Source: Rubripirellula sp. (GTDB taxonomy: Bacteria; Planctomycetota; Planctomycetia; Pirellulales; Pirellulaceae). From it: a stretch of DNA of 64,000 bases. Made by a program: the position numbers and the translations under genes. The stretch is from the NCBI GenBank assembly GCA_028823035.1, contig JAPKCI010000003.1, positions 61,928 through 125,927 of the forward strand, given 5' to 3'. Below, one piece after another: positions 773 through 12,924 of this stretch; positions within the stretch are counted from its first letter, which is position 1; each line of letters begins with the position of its first letter. The notes under the pieces are model-generated. The model saw only the letters and a program-made list of their open reading frames with translations. It was not told the DNA's origin and made no database searches.

Positions 773-1777
773 CTATTTCAAAAACTGATCGGTAAAACAA
801 TCTTCAGGCTTCACCAAATCGGCCTCTGTTGGATCCAACGCACCCATTTGTTTTACCAGCTCAGTCCAGCGTTCGAGAGACATGCGTCCGAACGACTTTT
901 CCGCATCCCCGGGTGGAATTGCCAAGTGTCGCATCTGCTCACTTCCATATTTCAAGACATCCGCTGTCATACCGTGATCATTTGCCTTCAGAATGGCGGC
1001 ATTACCTTTCACAGGATCTTTCAAGTAGCTCTGCCAACCGAGTTGAGTTGCCTGCACAAAACGGCGAACCAGTTCTGGCTGTTCCTTGATCATTTTCCCG
1101 GTCGTGATGAGTACGCTTGAGTAGGGATTCCAGCCCAACTTACTGACCATCAGAACCCGAACCTTGGCTCCCTGCTGCTCTGCCAACAGTGGTTCGGCAA
1201 AGCTATAGCCCTGAATCGCGATCTTCGGATCAGCGATCAGCGATGCTACCGTCCCGTAGTAGGGGACTTCCTGAACCTTATCCAAAATTCCCTTGGAACG
1301 CATAAACTCAAGATAGGGTCGACCCACCTGGCACTGGAGCGTCAATCCCGCAAGATCTTGCAGCGACTTAATACCACTTTCCTGTCTCACGATAATACAC
1401 CTCGGATTGTCCTGCATCGCGGCGAGCACAGCGACAACATCGAGTCCCTGTCGACGATAAACAACAACATCATCGGCATTGGCAAAACCAAATTGAACAC
1501 GGTCCAAAGCCAGTTCGGACGCCACTGGGGCTGCTCGCCCACCGGGTCTGATATCAACCTGCAAACCGGCTGCTTGGTAAGCTCCGTCAGCAGACGCTTG
1601 AAAGACCCCTCCATGCTCGGATTCGGGATACCAGTTCAACTGGATTGCAACTTTCGAGTCTCCATGATCACTTCCTGAAGAATCGTCACCCACACTACTG
1701 GGGGTTGTGGACGACTGACTACAACCGACCATGACCAGCATGGTCAAACCACAGAAAAAAAAACAGGCACGTCTCAT
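773..1777 (-). CDS. NMT1/THI5 (ThiY/SsuA)-like ABC transporter substrate-binding lipoprotein
   Basis: Lipobox-like MLVMVGCSQ; AIQLNWYPESEHGGVFQA typical of NMT1-like proteins; next to permease and ATPase. Start moved from 1861 to the ATG at 1777 before the signal peptide. Confidence 0.85.
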   Translation of the reverse strand: MRRACFFFCGLTMLVMVGCSQSSTTPSSVGDDSSGSDHGDSKVAIQLNWYPESEHGGVFQASADGAYQAAGLQVDIRPGGRAAPVASELALDRVQFGFANADDVVVYRRQGLDVVAVLAAMQDNPRCIIVRQESGIKSLQDLAGLTLQCQVGRPYLEFMRSKGILDKVQEVPYYGTVASLIADPKIAIQGYSFAEPLLAEQQGAKVRVLMVSKLGWNPYSSVLITTGKMIKEQPELVRRFVQATQLGWQSYLKDPVKGNAAILKANDHGMTADVLKYGSEQMRHLAIPPGDAEKSFGRMSLERWTELVKQMGALDPTEADLVKPEDCFTDQFLK

Positions 1778-1927
1778 AGAACTAGAACCTCCGCGTGAAA
1801 GGGCTGCTGGCACAGTATCATCATCATCGTTTGCCCAATGGAAGCCCCTTTCATTGGGCAAGGATCAAAACCAGACCGCTGCCTGCATTTTCAGCCGAAA
1901 AAACCAAGCGACAGCAGTGATCTAGTC

Positions 1928-2737
1928 TCAGTTGACCGCTGAAGCAAATCTTGTCCAACGTCGTAAAACCAAAGCCGAGACCAACTGAACCGCCCCGAAC
2001 ATCAACAGTCCCAACATGGCCGATGCAAAGACGGCCGATACCAATGCATCTGTTTTTACCATGACAGTCCATCCCGTCATGAGACTTCCCAGCCCATTGT
2101 AAGTAGTCCCGTTGCCGACAAAGAACTCGGCAACAATGGCGCCAATCACGGCCAGACCACTACTGGTCTTCGTTCCCAGCATCAGATAACTGATGGATGA
2201 CGGGATCTGTAAACGCCAAAGACGCTTCCAACGTCCAGCACCATAAAGCCGAAACAAGTCAGCGGAATCCTGCTTTGTTCCCAGCAGGCCGCCCGTCATG
2301 CTATTGACGATCGGAAACAAACAGACGATCGCGGTTACGATCACCACGGTGCGAAAGGTGTATCCACTCCAAATGATTAGCAGCGGGGCGATGGCAACAA
2401 TCGGCACGGTTTGCAACAGAATGACATAAGGGAACAGAGCCAACCGGAGACTTCGTGACTGGCTGAACACGATTGCCAATGACGATCCGATCACGACAGA
2501 AACGAGTAATCCGCTGATCGCTGCAGCTCCCGTCGAAAGAGTCGCGAGAAACAGTGTTTGCCGTTCCGCGACAGCAGCTACCCAACATTGCCGTGGAGTC
2601 GGCAGTAGTGCTTTTGGCAGTTCAAAATGCCAAACCGTGAGTTCCCAAACTGCCAGTGCAAGACAAGCAACCATGAACACCAGCCCAACACTCGTCAGTG
2701 TCTCACGTAACCGGGAAGGAATTGCTGGCATCTTCAT
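1928..2737 (-). CDS. ABC transporter permease (SsuC/TauC/ThiX-like)
   Basis: Multiple TM segments, binding-protein-dependent permease pattern; ATG overlaps the ATPase stop (ATGA). Confidence 0.88.
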   Translation of the reverse strand: MKMPAIPSRLRETLTSVGLVFMVACLALAVWELTVWHFELPKALLPTPRQCWVAAVAERQTLFLATLSTGAAAISGLLVSVVIGSSLAIVFSQSRSLRLALFPYVILLQTVPIVAIAPLLIIWSGYTFRTVVIVTAIVCLFPIVNSMTGGLLGTKQDSADLFRLYGAGRWKRLWRLQIPSSISYLMLGTKTSSGLAVIGAIVAEFFVGNGTTYNGLGSLMTGWTVMVKTDALVSAVFASAMLGLLMFGAVQLVSALVLRRWTRFASAVN

Positions 2738-3516
2738 GCTTCCCCCCGCAAAGCGTGACTCACACAACCGTAAAACTCGCCAAATTCGACCGTCGTGCGT
2801 AAAGACTCACAACGTGGACGAGGAAGCGGATTATTCAGTACGGTCTGCAATGCGCCCTGACGCATGACGGCAATGCGGTGCGACAACAGCACTGACTCGG
2901 CAATGTTGTGAGTCACCATGACAGCTGTGAACCGCTGTTTTTCCCATAATTCCAACAGCAGTTGCCCCAACTGAGTTCGCAACATGTCATCGAGCGCAGC
3001 AAAGGGTTCATCAAGCAGCAAAACATTGGGGTCAGTGACCAGTGCACGGGCAATCGAGACCCGCATCTTCATGCCACCAGACAACTCAGAAGGGAAACTG
3101 GACATTGCCTTCTGGAGGCCGACAGTGTTCAGCAGGTCGGACGCCAACTCACGTCGTCCCTGCGCAGAACCTCTACCGATCAATTCCAGAGGCAGGGCAA
3201 CATTCTCGAGCGCCGTTCTCCACGGCAGTAACGCTGGTTGCTGGAATACAAACGCGATCCCACCCTCATGACCCACCACCGGCGGCCGAAGACTCACACT
3301 GCCGTGTGTTGGCAGTTCGAGATTGGCCATCAATCGCAGCAGAGTGGTTTTGCCGCACCCGCTGGGACCGATCAAGGAAAGGATTTCGCCGGATTCAACC
3401 GTCAATTCGACTTGATCGACAGCCCGGGTTCCGCCGGGATATTGAATCGAAAGCGACTCACAGTGAATCGCAGAGGCATTATCAGCTTCGTTCACCGGGT
3501 TCTGGATCTTTTCCAT
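2734..3516 (-). CDS. ABC transporter ATP-binding protein (SsuB/TauB/ThiZ-like)
   Basis: Walker A GPSGCGKTT, signature LSGGMKMR, Walker B VLLLDEPFAALD. Confidence 0.95.
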   Translation of the reverse strand: MEKIQNPVNEADNASAIHCESLSIQYPGGTRAVDQVELTVESGEILSLIGPSGCGKTTLLRLMANLELPTHGSVSLRPPVVGHEGGIAFVFQQPALLPWRTALENVALPLELIGRGSAQGRRELASDLLNTVGLQKAMSSFPSELSGGMKMRVSIARALVTDPNVLLLDEPFAALDDMLRTQLGQLLLELWEKQRFTAVMVTHNIAESVLLSHRIAVMRQGALQTVLNNPLPRPRCESLRTTVEFGEFYGCVSHALRGEA

Positions 3517-3546: not shown

Positions 3547-4728
3547 TCACTCAACCTCGGCCCGTTTCGCGGCATCACCTAGGTTGCCGGCTGGCTTCAG
3601 TTCGAATCGCCTGCCATCAACCTCAAGAATTGCGTAGCGAGGTGTCACATCGACCACAGTACCTTTAAGGCTGCCGATTTCAAAGCTGTCACCTATTTTC
3701 AGCCGCAATGTCTGATCGCGGGTTCGAACATGCATCCATGCCGTCCAATCTTCACGTCCTTGCACAAGTGCAGTCAACACGGTCTGTGAGGCATCGTCAA
3801 ATGAAGGTTTGGCTGGCGGATCTGCCGGGGGTGGTGGCGGATCGACAACACGTACCGTGATTGTTTGCTCCGTGGTCCGCCGAGGATAACCACTGTCGAT
3901 GGCACGCACCAGCAATTCAAATTCCTGAGTAACGTCGGAATTGACACGCAGAGTGCCACTTCTGGAATCCAGACGAACGAAATCAGGAGGATCATCCCCC
4001 AACTCCACTCGAATATCATGACCCTCGGGGTCTTTGAAGGTCAGCGGAGTCGGCGAATCCCGCCCTACAAACGCCTCAATCGATCGTCCACCACTGTACC
4101 GTGGTGGCTGATTTGGGGGTTCGTAGAGATTGCGATTCATGATGACTGCAATGTAGGCATCCGCATCCGCATCAACACGGTATGACGGCTCCATACGCTG
4201 TGGCAGGTCATCTGGGGCATTCACCAACGCGATGACATCAACATTCATGGTCACATTGAATCCACCGCTCTTGAGTGGCGCGATCGTCAATTCGCGGATT
4301 CGATGGAGATAATCCTTGGCATAGAAATCGTGCATCATCCCTATCAAGGAAGGGAGTTTTGTGGCACCCGTTATCCGAAACTCAATCTTCTGGTAAACCT
4401 CGCCCATCGAGCGAGAACTTGTGAAATCAACCATGACGTTGTCCATCCCCTTGTCATGTACAAGTTCAAGTAACCATTGCTGGTACTGGCTACGTGCGAG
4501 TTCAGGATTGCTCGGTAGGGACCGTGCCATGTACTCGCCCAGTTGTCTGTCAGCCAGTGCCCCCTGCATAACTTGGTCGGTCAACTCCTCCTGCTTGCTG
4601 CTCAACTGACTGACCTGTGCCTCGCGTTGTGAAACAGCCGACTGGTAACGGCCGTAACCGGTCCAAATCAGGTACAACACCAGAATCGCGCCAACGAGTT
4701 TGACGAGGTTTTTTTCTCTTTCATTCAT
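3547..4728 (-). CDS. Type II secretion GspM/PilO-like protein with cadherin-like and GspC/PilP-like C-terminal region
   Basis: N-terminal TM plus coiled coil; last gene of the gsp run with ATGA overlap to gspL-like gene; RNLYEPPNQPPR linker; LTFKDPEGHDIRVELGD...LRVNSDVTQEFELLVRAIDSGYPRRTTEQTITVRVVD cadherin-like; C-terminal LRLKIGDSFEIGSLKGTVVDVTPRYAILEVDGRRFELKPAGN HR/PilP-like. Confidence 0.7.
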   Translation of the reverse strand: MNEREKNLVKLVGAILVLYLIWTGYGRYQSAVSQREAQVSQLSSKQEELTDQVMQGALADRQLGEYMARSLPSNPELARSQYQQWLLELVHDKGMDNVMVDFTSSRSMGEVYQKIEFRITGATKLPSLIGMMHDFYAKDYLHRIRELTIAPLKSGGFNVTMNVDVIALVNAPDDLPQRMEPSYRVDADADAYIAVIMNRNLYEPPNQPPRYSGGRSIEAFVGRDSPTPLTFKDPEGHDIRVELGDDPPDFVRLDSRSGTLRVNSDVTQEFELLVRAIDSGYPRRTTEQTITVRVVDPPPPPADPPAKPSFDDASQTVLTALVQGREDWTAWMHVRTRDQTLRLKIGDSFEIGSLKGTVVDVTPRYAILEVDGRRFELKPAGNLGDAAKRAEVE

Positions 4729-6617
4729 GACTTCACCTCCGGTCGAATCTCCACGACGATTTCGCTGTCAGAGTTCGTTTCTGGTTCGCTTTCTGGTTGA
4801 GTTTCTGGTTTAGTTTCTGGTTCGCTTTCTGGTTGAGTTTCCGTGTCGCTTTGGGCTGATCCCGATTTACCGGGATCAGCTATTCCCGGTGTACCTTCAG
4901 CATCCGGTGTACCTTCAGCATCCGGTGTACCTTCAGCATCCGGTGTACCTTCAGCGTCCGGTGTACCTTCAGCAAGGGATGCACTTTCTGTTGCTGGCGA
5001 ACGATCTCCACTTTTCTCGCTGACGTCTCCCCCGTCGGAACCTTGCGATTCCCCGTCACCTTGTTCTGCCGTCATCTGCGGTTTTTCTCGCTCGTCACCA
5101 GCTGTTGACTCGGTGGCATCGGATTTTGGAATTTTGGAAACCTCCTCCCGGCCCAATTGTGCATCAGCCTGCTGCGCGAATTCGCTAATCCCTTGGTACC
5201 TTTGGTCACGCACATAACCGGGCGAAAGCCGGATCACCTCGGCGAAGTTCCACCGGTACGTGTCAGATGTTTTCTGTTCACTCGCACCATCACCTTGCAC
5301 GGTGCGGAATTCATCGCGAATGGACTCCTCGAACTCGTCAATGACCGCAGGCTTCGTGACAGCGCCTCCCACAGATAACATCCCACCGCCGTTTCTCGAG
5401 TCACTGACCGCGGAAACGCGGCGAACAATCAGTTTGTCCGACGACGGTGATTTCTCGGCTAAGCGGCGAATCTCGTTTAGCCAATTGACATCGCCATCGA
5501 GGTATTTGTCGACAACTTCTGTTCTTGCAATACTCTCTGTGGCGGATTTAACCTCCTTCTCTTTCTTGCTGTTCGCCGATCTCAACTGCTCGATTTCTGC
5601 ATCGAGAGAATCAAGTTGACGATAGATCATGAAACCGAGCAGGGCAGCCAAAACCGCCGAGATTCCGGCGATCATGTATTTGCGGTAAGGGTTTTCGACC
5701 TCTTCCACCCGCTCCCGTGGATTGAGAAAATCCACCAAGCGATCTGCACCGGCCTCGTCAGCTACCAGCAAACCAACCAGAGGAGCCAACCGCCCGACAT
5801 GATCGGGCATGTTCGCCTTTGCGTTTCGATCAACATCGACCAGCGAGAATGGATCAAGCACCTCAACTTTGCTACCTGAGGCTTCGGACAACATCTCGAC
5901 ATCTTGCGAGTGAACCTCGGCACGCCCCCAAAGCACCACGCGATCAAGCGTACCACTCGAGCCGCAGGCAACCAGACTTCGCCGCAACTCACCCGCAAGT
6001 GCTCGGCCCCTTCCTGCCTCGACCGAAGGCATTCGAACCGTACGAACGAAGATGACTCGTCCCCCTCGAGCCACGACGATTTCAGCATCATCAGCAAGCA
6101 GATCAATGAGGACAATGTCGTTACTACCGGATCGTCCCTGATTTAGCAGATAGAGCGCTGCCGCAGCCAGCGGTCGCAGCGAAATCCGCTTCGTGACCAA
6201 GTTCACGGCCTCGCAAATTCCTTTCAGGCTGTCAAGCTCCTGAGGCTCCAGAGCCGCGGCAATCATCTCCACACCGGATTCACTACGATTGGTGACCAGG
6301 TAGTCAACCACGGCGTTGTCCCCCGCGGTCGCAAAACTCCGAATGGCCTGAAATCGAACCATGTCGGGCAATTCTTCCTCTGGCACAGGTGGCAAATGCA
6401 ATTCTCGCAATTCTGCCTGACCACGCCCGATGGCGACCAGAGTTTCGGTATTTTCAAACCCCTGATCGGCGAGTGCTTCCTTGAGGGTATCAAGGACACC
6501 CTTGCCTTCAATCGGTATCACCCGGGCATCAGTGACTTTGACGTTGCTGCCCATGCACTGCGCAGCCACCAACCGCAACTCACTCTCATCCCAATCGATT
6601 GCTAATTTTTTTACCAT
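4725..6617 (-). CDS. Type II secretion GspL/PilM-PilN-like protein with repetitive acidic C-terminal tail
   Basis: N-terminal PilM/actin-like fold pattern, single TM (YMIAGISAVLAALLGFMIY), PilN-like periplasmic part, then EGTPDA repeats; position between gspK- and gspM-like genes. Confidence 0.75.
   Translation of the reverse strand: MVKKLAIDWDESELRLVAAQCMGSNVKVTDARVIPIEGKGVLDTLKEALADQGFENTETLVAIGRGQAELRELHLPPVPEEELPDMVRFQAIRSFATAGDNAVVDYLVTNRSESGVEMIAAALEPQELDSLKGICEAVNLVTKRISLRPLAAAALYLLNQGRSGSNDIVLIDLLADDAEIVVARGGRVIFVRTVRMPSVEAGRGRALAGELRRSLVACGSSGTLDRVVLWGRAEVHSQDVEMLSEASGSKVEVLDPFSLVDVDRNAKANMPDHVGRLAPLVGLLVADEAGADRLVDFLNPRERVEEVENPYRKYMIAGISAVLAALLGFMIYRQLDSLDAEIEQLRSANSKKEKEVKSATESIARTEVVDKYLDGDVNWLNEIRRLAEKSPSSDKLIVRRVSAVSDSRNGGGMLSVGGAVTKPAVIDEFEESIRDEFRTVQGDGASEQKTSDTYRWNFAEVIRLSPGYVRDQRYQGISEFAQQADAQLGREEVSKIPKSDATESTAGDEREKPQMTAEQGDGESQGSDGGDVSEKSGDRSPATESASLAEGTPDAEGTPDAEGTPDAEGTPDAEGTPGIADPGKSGSAQSDTETQPESEPETKPETQPESEPETNSDSEIVVEIRPEVKS
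4888..4974. repeat. 18-bp in-frame tandem repeat (ggtgtaccttcagcatcc), 4 full copies plus partial
   Basis: Direct reading; encodes EGTPDA x4 in the GspL-like tail. Confidence 0.95.
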
Positions 6618-6724: not shown

Positions 6725-8410
6725 TCAATCAGTCGCTGCCGTCCCTGCACTTCCTGTCCCATCGCCTTCGAGCCCCGTGAATGACCTCGAACCCAGTACT
6801 GACAAATCAAATCCTCTTCCCAGATGACTCAAATCCCGCCACAACACGATTTTCGGGTTGACCGTTGTGGCATCAATAATCACCTCGGCACGGTGTGCTA
6901 CTCCACTCTGCTCGTAATAGCCAACAATTTGAGCCCGGAACACATCTCCGCCGCAGGTCACAAGCGGAATCAGTTGTCTCATTTCATCAAGTGACACCAA
7001 TCCTTCAACGAGAGGCCATGTTTCAAACTGGCGGTTCAAGTCATCGGAACTGACATCTCGTGTTTCGATAATCGATTCGACTGTTTCCTCGGTCAGCAGA
7101 GGAATGCCATAAAGCAATTCAGCAGGACACTCATTTAGATTAATCCGACCTGGCATAACTTCGACGTCTTGTGTCGTCAAAGAATCCATTAAAGCCGGCA
7201 TGTAGAGCCCCATCGAGATAATATCTTCAGAAAAAGGGGAACTATAGGATCGAGCGTTATCACCATTCCCAACCGTCACGGTCGCGCCAACTAAATCCAG
7301 AATCTGGGTCAAAGAGGTCCCACCGCCACCACTGAGATCAAATTCACTCATCACGTCGGCTGTCCACGGCCCAACTACCTCCGCCTGCTGCGAATCCGCG
7401 CCATTCCCAGTCAACAATGCCATGCTGGAATTCGACTGACCAGCTATTCGGTAGGCTGCGATGAACGTGGCGTAATCTTCATTCTCCAACGCCCCTGACA
7501 ATTCTTCAAAGAGCAACTCGAGATCGTCCTGATTCACGTTGACCCTGAAACTTCCATCGCGGCGTTTGCTTGCCTCGGAACCGTGTACAGTCAAATAGGC
7601 AGCCCAACCAAGAGAACCAGCGGTTTCGACCGTCACGCCAAAACGCTGTTGCTCATCCGCGTCAAGAACTCCATTGCGATTGACATCCGCACCGAAGAGC
7701 AGAGTCGGGGTGACCCCTCGTACCAGCAACAGTTCTTCGACACTCAGGACAGGTCCGTTTTTGGGAACATAAGGCGTCGGCAAAGTGGTGTAGTACTCTG
7801 CCTCGGCTCCGTACGGGCGCACGTCCTCGTCTTCGTCCAGCCAGTCGAGTATTGCGTCAGCGACATCCTCGGTCATGCTTGGCAAAGTCAACAACAGAGA
7901 CACCGCAATATTGTCGCTCGTCACCTCATCCTCGGATTCGCTTGAATCGTCAACCGCAGTCAGAACGGAGGCCAGCATTCCTGCCGAACTGCTTTCCAAA
8001 ACTGTCAGCGCGTTGACATTCAGTCTGGCTGACTCGTTCTGCAAACCGAAGCGTAGCCCAGCAAGATTGCCGTTTTCATCAAGACCCGGCGCAAGAATAG
8101 AAAAGTTTGAAGGGGTCGCATTGTCATCACCCATTGAGACATTGACAGCCTGGAACATCTGCGGGTTGTTGTAGACACCACCAAAATCAACCCGCATCTC
8201 AGGCGGTTCTGCAAGCAATAACCTGACCGCTTCAGCACCCGACTCAACATTCACCCGTGTCTGCACGATGTCACCCGACAAGTACGCGGCATCGTCGTAG
8301 GCGAGCATCAAGTCAGTGAACGAGTAAACTGCCATGGTCGCAATCGCAATCACGACCAAGACGAGCACGAGAAAGAATCCATGACGGACGGGTGTTCCGG
8401 TACGATTCAT
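6725..8410 (-). CDS. gspK: Type II secretion minor pseudopilin GspK-like
   Basis: N-terminal hydrophobic helix (HGFFLVLVLVVIAIATMAVYSFT), ARLNVNALT, VADAILDWLDEDEDVRPYGAEAEYY typical of T2SK. Confidence 0.85.
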   Translation of the reverse strand: MNRTGTPVRHGFFLVLVLVVIAIATMAVYSFTDLMLAYDDAAYLSGDIVQTRVNVESGAEAVRLLLAEPPEMRVDFGGVYNNPQMFQAVNVSMGDDNATPSNFSILAPGLDENGNLAGLRFGLQNESARLNVNALTVLESSSAGMLASVLTAVDDSSESEDEVTSDNIAVSLLLTLPSMTEDVADAILDWLDEDEDVRPYGAEAEYYTTLPTPYVPKNGPVLSVEELLLVRGVTPTLLFGADVNRNGVLDADEQQRFGVTVETAGSLGWAAYLTVHGSEASKRRDGSFRVNVNQDDLELLFEELSGALENEDYATFIAAYRIAGQSNSSMALLTGNGADSQQAEVVGPWTADVMSEFDLSGGGGTSLTQILDLVGATVTVGNGDNARSYSSPFSEDIISMGLYMPALMDSLTTQDVEVMPGRINLNECPAELLYGIPLLTEETVESIIETRDVSSDDLNRQFETWPLVEGLVSLDEMRQLIPLVTCGGDVFRAQIVGYYEQSGVAHRAEVIIDATTVNPKIVLWRDLSHLGRGFDLSVLGSRSFTGLEGDGTGSAGTAATD

Positions 8411-9402
8411 AGCCCCGCCTCCGTTAAATCTTCTTCCTCTTCCTCAAGCGGCACAGCCATGGGCAAACGAACGATGTGCGAGAACGTCCGCATCGATTCG
8501 GTGTCGAGCGTGGACATCGTGTCAGTATCCTCGGTCGCCGCCAAGGCTGGATCAATCATGTAAATCCGTACCTGAACGGCGAGTGGCAATTCACCCAACT
8601 CATCACTGCTCCATTCCAGTAGCCACGTCAAACCATCCCAGTAAGAGAATTCGATTCCTTTGATTTCGGGGGCCAGCAACTCACCGGTCTGGTTCAGCGT
8701 GTTGAGATTTCCCATTGTGGCGGCTTCTACTGTGGCAGCCCGGTCAAGCGATCTACGAACCAAGCCACCGGGTGTGAGGCTCGCTGCCTCCGGATCGAGT
8801 TCGGCCAAAGGATCCAACACACCATCTATCGCGTCGTCAGCCTGCACATAATACGCCACCGTTTTAAGATCACTGGGAATATCCTGAAGGTCAGTCGTCG
8901 TTTCGTCCAGCATCAGAACGTACTCCTCAAGACGCGGCAGGCGGCTCAAGTCGAGTTGGATCTGGTACTGATTGCCAATGAGACCCGGCGTTTGCAAAAC
9001 GGCTACGCCGCTAGTCAGGTCAAGCGTGGTGGTGTCCAGGCTTTCCACTGGCTCTTCGTCCATACTGATTCCTGCCGCGGAAAGATCCTCTTCGCTCTCT
9101 TCACCACCACCTGCTCCTTGTCCAGAGCCTTCTTCTTCTCCGAAGCTTGCAGCGAGAAGACTCTCCAAGCCAGACATGTCACTAGGTTCACTGTGTAAAG
9201 TCGCCCGCAGGTCATCTTCGATCATCTGCATCACAGCAGAAGCCAACTGGGTCTGCCGAACGTCCATGTTTCGCACGTTCATATCGACAGCGTAAAACTG
9301 GAACGCAGATCCAACCAAGGCCATCAGCACCACCGACATCGCCAAGGTCAGCAACACCTCCAATAGAGTAAATGCAATGCGTATGCGCTGCTTGATCCTC
9401 AT
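8407..9402 (-). CDS. gspJ: Type II secretion minor pseudopilin GspJ-like
   Basis: RIAFTLLEVLLTLAMSVVLMALVGSAF prepilin signal; operon order; FSYWDGLTWLLEW typical of GspJ. Confidence 0.8.
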   Translation of the reverse strand: MRIKQRIRIAFTLLEVLLTLAMSVVLMALVGSAFQFYAVDMNVRNMDVRQTQLASAVMQMIEDDLRATLHSEPSDMSGLESLLAASFGEEEGSGQGAGGGEESEEDLSAAGISMDEEPVESLDTTTLDLTSGVAVLQTPGLIGNQYQIQLDLSRLPRLEEYVLMLDETTTDLQDIPSDLKTVAYYVQADDAIDGVLDPLAELDPEAASLTPGGLVRRSLDRAATVEAATMGNLNTLNQTGELLAPEIKGIEFSYWDGLTWLLEWSSDELGELPLAVQVRIYMIDPALAATEDTDTMSTLDTESMRTFSHIVRLPMAVPLEEEEEDLTEAGL

Positions 9403-9917
9403 CAGGCTGCCCCCCCACCGGCCGCTGCTTCCTCGCGTGCGGCCTCTTCCTCAGCTTCCAATTCTTCAAGTCCCAGTGCAGGGTCAATCATCCACCGCAC
9501 CAGAGAGTATCGGGCAAGGGGCTCCCCACCATCGGGGTTCTGTGCCTCTACTAAAACCCGGATCAACAATATCCCCGCCAACTGACCTGGCTGCACTTCG
9601 ACTGAAAATTCGAAAGAAGTCATGGACTGTGAATCGAAGGAATCGACCGGCGCGAGAGGCTGGCTCTGCGGCGTGAAGCCCGCAGTGCTGTTCAACAACA
9701 CCTCTGATAGTTTCCCCTGACAAATCATGCGGGCGATGGCCAAGTCACGCCCCTCCCTCGCAGCAGATATTCCGATATCGACGATTCGGCTGAGGATCGC
9801 CAACGATCCGCCAAGAATTGCCAGAGCCAATAGAATTTCCAGCAGAGAGAACCCGCGACGTTTCAACGGTTTTCGCCTCGCACCTTGGCGTTTCTGTTTT
9901 CCTTGTCGCGCAATCAT
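9402..9917 (-). CDS. gspI: Type II secretion minor pseudopilin GspI-like
   Basis: RGFSLLEILLALAILGGSLAIL prepilin signal; TGATG overlap with the gspJ-like gene. Confidence 0.78.
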   Translation of the reverse strand: MIARQGKQKRQGARRKPLKRRGFSLLEILLALAILGGSLAILSRIVDIGISAAREGRDLAIARMICQGKLSEVLLNSTAGFTPQSQPLAPVDSFDSQSMTSFEFSVEVQPGQLAGILLIRVLVEAQNPDGGEPLARYSLVRWMIDPALGLEELEAEEEAAREEAAAGGGAA

Positions 9918-10576
9918 GGTGCCAACACCTGACTGACAGTTGCCTCGCCAGTGATCCCACGGATCTTCACCACAACTCGCCCCATCGTCGGATGAATCAG
10001 GCTGATCAGTGCTGTGCTTGTGGACCCATCAGGGTAGAAAAGCACCGGACGACTCCAGCCTTCGACCTGATCGGAAATCGTGAGTTGCTCGATCTCGGCA
10101 GACCGAGCTGCGGAAACGACGCTTACACCGCTGAGGGTGATTCCTTCAGGCAATTCAATCATTTCAATCGCCGATTCATCCTGCTCCACGACAACCGCCA
10201 CCGCTTGATCGGCACCGGCGAGCAAAGCAGAACCCCCACCCGTCTGATCGATCGCTTCTGTGGCGTCAATTGCAGAGTAGAACGGCTTGGCCCGTAGGTC
10301 ATTCCCTTCAATCATCCCCTCAAGCATGATCACTCGACCCGAGCGCATCGCTTCGACCCGCAATCGGGCGACGCTGCCCCGAATTTGCTCACCAGCACGA
10401 ACCAACCGACGATCATCCAATAACATTCCCCATTTTGGCATGGTCAGTGATGCCATTGCGGCAAGGACAGCTATGACCAACAGCAATTCGAGGAGCGTGA
10501 AGGCAGATCGGCGTGGCAATGGATAACTTCCGCACAGGGGTTTGTTGAACATCAAAGACACCGCTCCTTCGATCAA
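9914..10576 (-). CDS. gspH: Type II secretion pseudopilin GspH-like
   Basis: RSAFTLLELLLVIAVLAAMASLTMPKW prepilin signal; ATGA overlap with the gspI-like gene. Confidence 0.78.
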   Translation of the reverse strand: MIEGAVSLMFNKPLCGSYPLPRRSAFTLLELLLVIAVLAAMASLTMPKWGMLLDDRRLVRAGEQIRGSVARLRVEAMRSGRVIMLEGMIEGNDLRAKPFYSAIDATEAIDQTGGGSALLAGADQAVAVVVEQDESAIEMIELPEGITLSGVSVVSAARSAEIEQLTISDQVEGWSRPVLFYPDGSTSTALISLIHPTMGRVVVKIRGITGEATVSQVLAP

Positions 10577-10624: not shown

Positions 10625-11062
10625 TCAGCCCTCAATCGTGAGGTCATCGTCGGTGTTCATTTGCTGATCGAGACCTGAACTCCGAATCTCGAAACTGCCA
10701 CCGCTGACGTTATATTCTAGATCGTTCTCCCAGGAATCCTTCGGAATCTCTTCGATGATCGCAGAAACCCATTTCGCCTTCTTGGCAGCGTCACTCGGGC
10801 CGTCCCGAAGCATATCGAGGCTCTCTGGAAGACTATTCATTCTGATCTTGTACATTTTTACGGTGTTTTTCAGCTCGCCGAGAGTGATTTCCGTGGTTGA
10901 AACATTGGTTCCATCCTGAACCCCACTGTAGTTGGTAACGCCGATGCCAATGATCATGACCAAAATCGCGAGTACCAGAAGCAATTCGAGCAAAGTGAAG
11001 CCACTGCGTGCTGAGTGGGAGGATCGGTGTGATCGTTGAAGGTTACGGTACTGCATTGCCAT
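10625..11062 (-). CDS. gspG: Type II secretion major pseudopilin GspG
   Basis: RSGFTLLELLLVLAILVMIIGIGVTNY; LPESLDMLRDGP; DSWENDLEYNVSGGSFEIRSSGLDQQMNTDDDL matches the GspG C-terminal signature. Confidence 0.92.
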   Translation of the reverse strand: MAMQYRNLQRSHRSSHSARSGFTLLELLLVLAILVMIIGIGVTNYSGVQDGTNVSTTEITLGELKNTVKMYKIRMNSLPESLDMLRDGPSDAAKKAKWVSAIIEEIPKDSWENDLEYNVSGGSFEIRSSGLDQQMNTDDDLTIEG

Positions 11063-11430: not shown

Positions 11431-12924
11431 ATGGTGGCTCGCGACGATTCCTTCATCCGCGGCTCTTTAATTGCCTGCCTGATTTTCCTTGTCCTGTCGC
11501 TTGGCCTGAACTTTTTCCTCTGGCGGCATAGCGACACGATTGCAGCTCAGGAACAGAATAAGAGCGACACGCTTACGACGGTCCAGACCAAAGTGGAGCA
11601 GATGGAGACGCAGGCAAACCGGCTTAAAGCCATGCTGGGTATCGGTGGTTTCAGCGAGGCTGAAATCGAGGAAATGAAACAAAACACCTCTGACGACCCC
11701 GATATGCAGGCGATTGAGACACAATACGCCACCAACATGTCATATTTCGGGTCCAGCTATCAGGGTGAAAAAAACTATCCGGAACTGCCCGAGTATCTGG
11801 TCAAAGCCATTCGCGCTCGAAACCTAACAGTCGTCAACTATGAGGTGAACGAGAAGGATATCCGCTCCAAAGCTAAAACGGATGTGACGAACGCGGAAAA
11901 ACAACAGGAATTGGCCGAAACGGAACGAGACGATGCCAACAAAAAAGTCATCAAACTGAGCGATGAATTTGATCAGGACCGAAATCGGATGATCAAGGAA
12001 AAAGAGGACACCAAAGACAAGCTTGTCAAAACCGTGGATGACTTCACCACCTTTCGTAAGGACAAGGTCGATGAAACCAATAAGTTAACCCAGAAAGCGA
12101 GACAGCTACAGGGAACGATTGAGACCCAGAAGTTCCAACTGAATGAATTGCGGAACGACCAATTCGAAACCACGCAGGGGGAAATTCGTTATGTAGTGCG
12201 TGGTGGTAACATTACCACCATCAACCTCGGTTCAGCGGACGCCCTCCGACCTGGCATCACATTCGGCGTGATCGGCGGCGATGAAACGCGTCTGAAAGAT
12301 GCCAAAGTCAAAGCCACCATTCAGGTCACAAAAATCCAGGGGGCTCACTTGGCCGAAGCCCGCGTTGTAGCGTTTCCGGAAATCCGTAATCCAATCATTC
12401 CCGGAGACAAGATTTTCTCGCCATTCTGGGCGCCAGGTCGAGTCATCAAAATTGCCTTGGCGGGGAATATTGATATCGACGGTGACGGACGCCCCGACAA
12501 CGAAGCTCTCAAAGGCCAAATCCGGGCTGCCGGGGCAGTCGTTGCCGCCGAGATCACGCCGGCAGGCGGCATCAGCGGCAAGCTTGATGCTACTATCCGT
12601 TTCATGGTCGTCGGTGACGATCCAGAGTTAGGCAGCAGACCGACCGATGATGATGACAACAGTATTGCAACCATTGCCGCCATGGGGCGAATCAGGGCTA
12701 AAGCGGCCGAACTAGGGCTGACGGTCATCCCGGCATGGAAACTACAGAAGTACCTCAGGACTCTCAACGATACGCGCACGACACCGCTGGGATCAGCCAC
12801 CCGAGCCGAGGACTTCCCACCCGATCCTCGGGTCAGTGGCAGCCGATTGCCGAACATCGGTTCTGATCTCTACCGAACGCCGAATGAAAAACAGCAAAAG
12901 GGCAACAAAGTTCTTCCTCCCTGA
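11431..12924 (+). CDS. Membrane-anchored coiled-coil protein with BRCT-like C-terminus, hypothetical
   Basis: N-terminal TM (SLIACLIFLVLSLGLNFFLW), long charged coiled coil, C-terminal AAGAVVAAEITPAGGISGKLDATIRFMVVGDDP...RIRAKAAELGLTVIPAWKLQKYL. Confidence 0.75.
   Translation: MVARDDSFIRGSLIACLIFLVLSLGLNFFLWRHSDTIAAQEQNKSDTLTTVQTKVEQMETQANRLKAMLGIGGFSEAEIEEMKQNTSDDPDMQAIETQYATNMSYFGSSYQGEKNYPELPEYLVKAIRARNLTVVNYEVNEKDIRSKAKTDVTNAEKQQELAETERDDANKKVIKLSDEFDQDRNRMIKEKEDTKDKLVKTVDDFTTFRKDKVDETNKLTQKARQLQGTIETQKFQLNELRNDQFETTQGEIRYVVRGGNITTINLGSADALRPGITFGVIGGDETRLKDAKVKATIQVTKIQGAHLAEARVVAFPEIRNPIIPGDKIFSPFWAPGRVIKIALAGNIDIDGDGRPDNEALKGQIRAAGAVVAAEITPAGGISGKLDATIRFMVVGDDPELGSRPTDDDDNSIATIAAMGRIRAKAAELGLTVIPAWKLQKYLRTLNDTRTTPLGSATRAEDFPPDPRVSGSRLPNIGSDLYRTPNEKQQKGNKVLPP

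Follow-up and report, generated by a model that had tools for sequence, protein, structure and literature searches.

A GspM-like protein fused to a GspC/PilP-HR-like domain at the end of a planctomycete gsp operon

In type II secretion systems (T2SSs), GspC joins GspL and GspM in the inner membrane, and the HR domain of GspC binds the N0 domain of GspD (PMC6882859, PMC11981180). Among the Pil proteins, PilN interacts with PilO, PilO with PilP, and PilP with PilQ (PMC3724824). How, then, should one read a gene in which a GspM/PilO-like N terminus and a GspC/PilP-like C terminus appear to share one reading frame? Such a gene lies in a stretch of 64,000 nucleotides from Rubripirellula sp. (GenBank assembly GCA_028823035.1, contig JAPKCI010000003.1; here, the window), where a first-pass annotation described it as an apparent chimera of GspM, a cadherin-like domain, and GspC/PilP.

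The gene is the last of a gspGHIJKLM-type operon, as judged from the order of the open reading frames and their profile matches, and this operon is formed by seven same-strand genes from gspG to gspM-HR (Table 1). Its start overlaps the end of the GspL gene by 4 bp (ATGA) and is preceded by a strong Shine-Dalgarno sequence (GGAGGTGAA). Full-length relatives of the protein, at 29 to 84% identity, are present in at least 31 named genomes, with hosts that include Rhodopirellula, Rubripirellula, Stieleria, Roseiconus, and other Pirellulaceae. This is a real, conserved gene, and the accurate name for its product is GspM-HR fusion. Neighboring split genes in other classes might suggest that a frame or assembly artefact has joined two genes here, but the same fusion recurs across many independent genomes, including several closed assemblies of a single contig. 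Given this conservation across independent genomes, we rejected an assembly artefact and regard the probability of such a joining error as negligible. Directly downstream, a periplasmic-binding/permease/ATPase cassette (positions 773 to 3516, minus strand) resembles, from its translations, an SsuABC/NMT1-type ABC importer and looks unrelated to gspM-HR.

Table 1. Features of the gspM-HR gene and its operon, in positions of the window
Feature	Position	Strand	Basis
gspM-HR fusion gene (393 aa)	3547..4728	(-)	ORF and translation, relatives, Shine-Dalgarno sequence, gspL overlap
Predicted transmembrane segment, residues ~8-25	4654..4707	(-)	Sequence; opens long helix 3-69
PilO/GspM-type ferredoxin-like domain (predicted), residues ~75-168	4225..4506	(-)	AlphaFold2, Foldseek, NCBIfam
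RNLYEPP motif, residues 199-205	4114..4134	(-)	Alignments
Cadherin/He_PIG-like Ig-fold insert, residues ~212-296	3841..4095	(-)	Pfam and PDB profile matches
HR-type beta domain (predicted), residues ~316-377	3598..3783	(-)	AlphaFold2, Foldseek
GspL-type protein: PilM-like cytoplasmic domain, TM, coiled coil	4725..6617	(-)	NCBIfam Amuc_1101/PilM-like 1.8e-12, PilM 7.6e-9
GspK	6725..8410	(-)	Pfam T2SSK_1st 1e-16, NCBIfam GspK 2e-17
GspJ-like minor pseudopilin	8407..9402	(-)	Pfam T2SSJ 0.017 (weak); position
GspI-like minor pseudopilin	9402..9917	(-)	NCBIfam gspI 1.1e-5
GspH-like pseudopilin	9914..10576	(-)	N-methylation motif; NCBIfam XpsH 3e-4
GspG major pseudopilin, first gene of the operon	10625..11062	(-)	Pfam T2SSG 5e-15; NCBIfam gspG 8e-19

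The genes expected of a T2SS platform and pseudopilus are present, namely, those for pseudopilins G to K, GspL, GspM, GspE, and GspF. In the source genome, gspE and gspF lie on another contig (C440), apart from the operon in the window; in relatives there is a single operon, which at three loci (L139, L140, and L141) has the order Secretin_N protein-E-F-G-H-I-J-K-L-M.HR. Two other features were noted in this region. A near-perfect 18-bp tandem repeat of 4.9 copies (positions 4886 to 4974, minus strand) encodes AEGTPD repeats within the low-complexity tail at the C terminus of GspL. Adjoining gspG is a divergent gene (positions 11431 to 12924, plus strand) for a 497-aa protein with a TM segment and a coiled coil; about 16 relatives have it at the same place, and the protein has no family match above noise.

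We modeled residues 1 to 205 of the fusion protein with AlphaFold2 (33 sequences; mean pLDDT, 86). The model consists of a single helix over residues 3 to 69 (pLDDT, ~80 to 91), followed by a helix-strand-strand-helix-strand-strand domain. In a Foldseek search against the PDB, PilO ranked first (3jc8_Oa, 4.3e-4; 2rjz, 8e-4; 5uvr), with Amuc_1100 after it and EpsM (1uv7) lower. The N-terminal half also matched Pfam T2SSM at 3.6e-3 (17.9 bits versus a curated cutoff of 27.8) and the NCBIfam XpsM/GspM model at 4.2e-4 (20 bits versus a cutoff of 60), and the XpsM model matched 9 of 23 relatives (best, 9.4e-7). As modeled, residues 1 to 205 are a TM helix, a coiled coil, and a PilO/GspM fold, which bears out the N terminus proposed in the first-pass annotation. 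Like GspM and PilO (PF04612, PF04350, and NF040576; 2rjz and 1uv7), the protein has a single TM helix, a coiled coil, and a ferredoxin-like periplasmic domain according to AlphaFold2 and Foldseek, and its gene lies directly downstream of gspL, a placement kept in relatives. It differs from them in the addition of a linker, an Ig-like domain, and an HR domain, which together bring it to ~393 aa versus the 160 positions of the T2SSM model.

The rank of PilO among these fold matches, the match of GspL to PilM/Amuc_1101, and the order L-M-HR(-secretin) at one locus (L144), which matches pilMNOPQ, would also fit a type IV pilus or type IV pilus-like platform instead of a T2SS, with a PilM/N-like GspL, a PilO-PilP fusion, and a PilQ-like secretin. 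However, pseudopilins G and K strongly match T2SS models, no PilT was found in the gsp operons viewed, and the source genome carries a separate PilB-PilT-PilC cluster on contig C156. We consider a pilus platform unlikely and continue to treat the fusion as part of a T2SS-like system.

Between the two halves lies the linker. The first-pass annotation had described a Pro-rich linker with RNLYEPP and likened it to the RNPF/L-EP linker of GspC/PilP, and alignments placed the motif just where it had been described, with R199 invariant and N200 nearly invariant among relatives. RNLYEPP is the counterpart of the R-N-(L/I/F)-F motif that, in compact relatives, directly adjoins the HR domain on its N-terminal side. 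In the fusion protein, an Ig-like insert separates the RN(L/I)F motif from the HR domain and is itself followed by a Pro-rich linker. Its match to Pfam Cadherin is weak (1.7e-3), and a profile search of the PDB with this region returned cadherin chains; among relatives, He_PIG is the commoner Pfam match (14 of 23; best, 3.6e-22). Relatives carry zero, one, or two copies: the domain is missing in many (including L029, L091, L092, and L093) and doubled in others (L028 and L106), and where it is missing the RN(L/I/V)F motif or Pro-rich linker runs directly into the C-terminal domain. The earlier description of a cadherin-like domain was accurate as to its presence, but the domain is an optional insert, not a fixed part of the protein, and we interpret it as a spacer. 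On inspection, residues 212 to 300 contain neither of the calcium motifs DRE and DXNDN of calcium-binding cadherin repeats, and we rejected calcium-cadherin adhesion on the grounds that these motifs are absent and that relatives can do without the domain.

For the C terminus, we modeled residues 300 to 393 with AlphaFold2 (35 sequences; pLDDT, 84) and obtained seven strands (17-24, 29-35, 40-45, 49-52, 55-62, 67-71, and 74-78, in model numbering). A Foldseek search covering 350,542 PDB chains returned as its five most confident matches PilP from Neisseria (2ivw; probability, 1.00), the GspC HR domain from a GspC-GspD complex (3oss_C; probability, 1.00; TM score on target, 0.72; rmsd, 2.5), PilP in a T4aP model (3jc8_Pa; probability, 0.99), the PulC HR domain (6hcg_e; probability, 0.99; TM score, 0.73; rmsd, 2.1), and PilP from Pseudomonas (2lc4; probability, 0.96). 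Among the matches listed, all beyond these five chains have a probability of at most 0.66. The E values of 0.15 to 0.43 are weak and nonsignificant alone, as expected for so small a domain; we based the assignment on probability, rank, and independent sequence links. With regard to the latter, a profile of planctomycete HR domains matched PilP chains (0.076 and 0.099) and GspC 3oss (0.97) in register, a standalone HR protein from another planctomycete class matched Pfam T2SSC (1.3e-4), and Pfam T2SSB, the GspB HR family, was matched by a fused relative (L186; 0.0039). Neither half of the fusion protein passes any Pfam curated cutoff; its own match to T2SSB is at 0.057. The HR segment is among the best-conserved regions of the protein. 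The best PDB matches of the HR profile, Pizza6 designed propellers (1e-5 to 1e-11), were set aside as repeat inflation, with per-repeat E values above 600 in one search. By fold comparison, the C terminus falls inside the GspC/PilP fold, as first proposed, and residues ~316 to 377 are modeled as the HR fold of these proteins, which has two antiparallel sheets of three strands each.

Small barrels of another origin deserve mention here, given subthreshold Pfam matches to RuvA_N in the fusion protein (0.0047) and to YajC and RimP SH3 in relatives, which could mean that an unrelated RuvA_N-, YajC-, or SH3-like domain only resembles HR. Yet every high-probability fold match is HR or PilP, relatives provide sequence links to both T2SSC and T2SSB, an RN-x-F motif precedes the domain as in GspC/PilP, and separate HR genes adjoin gspM elsewhere. 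The fold search led us to reject the RuvA_N and YajC identities, and we consider an unrelated barrel very improbable.

Is this HR domain that of GspC or that of PilP? Like GspC (PF11356; HR structures 3oss and 6hcg), the fusion has an HR-type beta domain after an N-(L/I)-F motif and a predicted N0 dock. Unlike GspC, the HR half has no TM segment of its own (the sole one belongs to the GspM part), is followed by ~15 residues with no 2P element or PDZ domain, has no separate gene, and is encoded at the end of the operon instead of the start. As with PilP (PF04351; 2ivw and 2lc4), which binds PilO directly in Myxococcus (PMC3724824), a C-terminal HR domain is encoded between the equivalents of pilO and pilQ. 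However, PilP is a separate lipoprotein, whereas here HR is covalently part of the PilO equivalent and has no separate lipoprotein gene, a separate signal-peptide HR gene being found only in other classes. Because it has no TM segment of its own and no PDZ or 2P element, and because the gene order is PilP-like, we prefer GspC/PilP-HR-like to GspC as a name for the HR half, whose synteny resembles that of PilP at least as much as that of GspC. GspB/OutB (PF16537) likewise carries HR on a different membrane-anchored scaffold and binds N0, but it lacks a GspM domain and is an accessory component of a complete T2SS that includes GspC (PMC9239104). GspAB fusions, which arose in several gammaproteobacterial groups, also join two interacting T2SS components, although the partners are others and lie off the platform-secretin axis (PMC9239104). 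In the open-access literature covered here, we found no description of a GspM-HR fusion; it consists of known parts in a new arrangement.

A separate gspC in the same genome would argue against one protein having taken on both functions. In the source draft genome, Pfam T2SSC gave no match at E values up to 10, the PilP model gave noise only, and HR profiles returned gspM-HR as their sole match, with no second HR gene. Since this genome is a draft of 523 contigs that is 99.6% complete, a separate GspC or HR gene that was missed is unlikely but possible.

We also searched other planctomycete gsp operons for the same architecture. A class-wide search found relatives in 136 of 248 genomes. Twenty of these were picked for an N-terminal match only, and all 20 carry HR in the same open reading frame; together with 14 family or order members, the fused state was found in 34 of 34 class relatives examined. 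An HR-profile survey detected HR in 239 of 397 class genomes at an E value of 1e-5 or lower, and all of the ~150 matches listed lie in frames of at least 296 aa, a length that is an upper bound only, so that this survey counts as supporting evidence. Within the phylum but outside the class, there are 12 further fused loci and 11 split loci, in which gspM is directly followed by a separate gene encoding a signal peptide, RN(I/V)F, and HR. On a tree of 56 rows, the fused and split states require 2 changes, compared with a mean of 9.4 for shuffled labels; the tree is unrooted and does not polarize fusion versus fission. One fused locus from outside the class (L190) falls inside the clade formed by the class; its genome is 6% contaminated. 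The word chimera was correct in that the fusion is real, but it understates the case, as the architecture is fixed across the class and is no one-off. Some genomes (G166, with L108 and L024; G039, with L026 and L153) carry two divergent gspM-HR paralogues, which suggests two T2SS-like systems. The standalone HR proteins of other planctomycete classes (L181:3246-3926, L182:1170-2162, L226, L233, and L236) end in a conserved (L/I)LE(R/K)LR(Q/R)RR-type helix after HR, which is possibly a 2P-like element.

To what might the HR domain dock? In Pirellulaceae, the protein at the head of the complete operons combines an N0 domain with five or six repeats of Secretin_N and ends in a Gly-rich tail (L139:1826-5905, L140:1842-5438, and L141:12739-16356). 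Its N0 matches PF21305 in 8 of 15 members (3.8e-5 in L139; best, 6.6e-7), and it contains no secretin barrel. The corresponding Secretin_N/N0 protein of the source genome is encoded on C440 beside gspE/gspF (L083:2-2827), with a second copy on C474. A 1,281-aa secretin on C210 (L082:6646-10491, minus strand) has seven Secretin_N repeats and a barrel, with no detectable N0 of the PF21305 type; its homologue at L144 (L144:1-2581) lies directly downstream of gspM-HR. Another secretin, on C355, has a weak N0 match only, and no GspD with both N0 and a Secretin barrel in one protein was otherwise found. These sequences suggest that GspD may be divided between a protein that bears N0 and a channel that does not, although the weak match on C355 calls for caution. 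The barrel-less Secretin_N protein upstream of gspE, here the C440 copy, is probably the N0 partner of HR, and since the N0-bearing protein of the operon has no secretin barrel, HR may dock to something other than a classical GspD. More tentatively, and with the odds somewhat against it, the whole trans-envelope axis might have been re-engineered, with GspM-HR replacing GspC as an obligate 1:1 dock, N0 residing in a separate barrel-less Secretin_N protein at the operon head, and the secretin being an N0-less multi-ring channel.

The same distribution of N0, detectable in a barrel-less protein of the gsp operon and undetectable in the main large secretin, could instead mean that the N terminus is GspM and that the C-terminal beta domain has been repurposed (e.g., for a pseudopilus tip, a substrate, or peptidoglycan) and does not dock to a secretin N0; GspB shows that an HR domain can be carried by a different scaffold (PMC9239104). 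However, the HR domains of OutB, OutC, and PilP share a fold, and binding to secretin N0 is reported for all the characterized ones, those of GspC, PilP, and GspB (PMC9239104). N0 domains also persist in the same operon, and HR is among the best-conserved parts of the fusion. We regard repurposing as rather improbable.

Taken together, we favor, with a probability of about 0.78, a protein that crosses the inner membrane once and in which a single chain combines the roles of GspM (PilO) and of the HR domain (GspC/PilP) that docks to the secretin. As a covalent linker, this protein most likely ties the GspL-GspM platform to an N0 domain at 1:1. The N-terminal helix and ferredoxin-like domain would pair with GspL, and these pairs would make up the platform ring; the linker between the two halves, stiffened here by the optional Ig-like domain, would cross part of the periplasm. 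There would then be exactly one dock per GspL-GspM unit, and the C440-type Secretin_N/N0 protein would pass the HR contact on to the secretin. This would be a Rosetta-stone merger, in which two partners from neighboring genes connect the GspL-GspM ring with the base of the secretin at a fixed 1:1 ratio.

How many GspC or HR docks each platform unit carries is unsettled. In Klebsiella pneumoniae, PulC:E:L:M:N is approximately 2:1:1:1:1, which gives a PulC:PulM ratio of ~2:1 (PMC6882859), and a Xanthomonas model has six XpsCLM trimers (PMC11981180). A dock and GspM encoded as one chain force a ratio of 1:1, and if the planctomycete system secretes, then secretion does not depend on a GspC that is supernumerary or diffuses on its own. 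Planctomycetes thereby offer a natural test case for the connection between the inner and outer membranes. The fusion of neighboring partner genes also supports the PilO-PilP and GspM-GspC interactions. Very few T2SSs have been reported outside Proteobacteria (PMC4793230), and the fusion may explain why surveys with GspC and standard GspM or GspD profiles would under-call T2SSs in planctomycetes.
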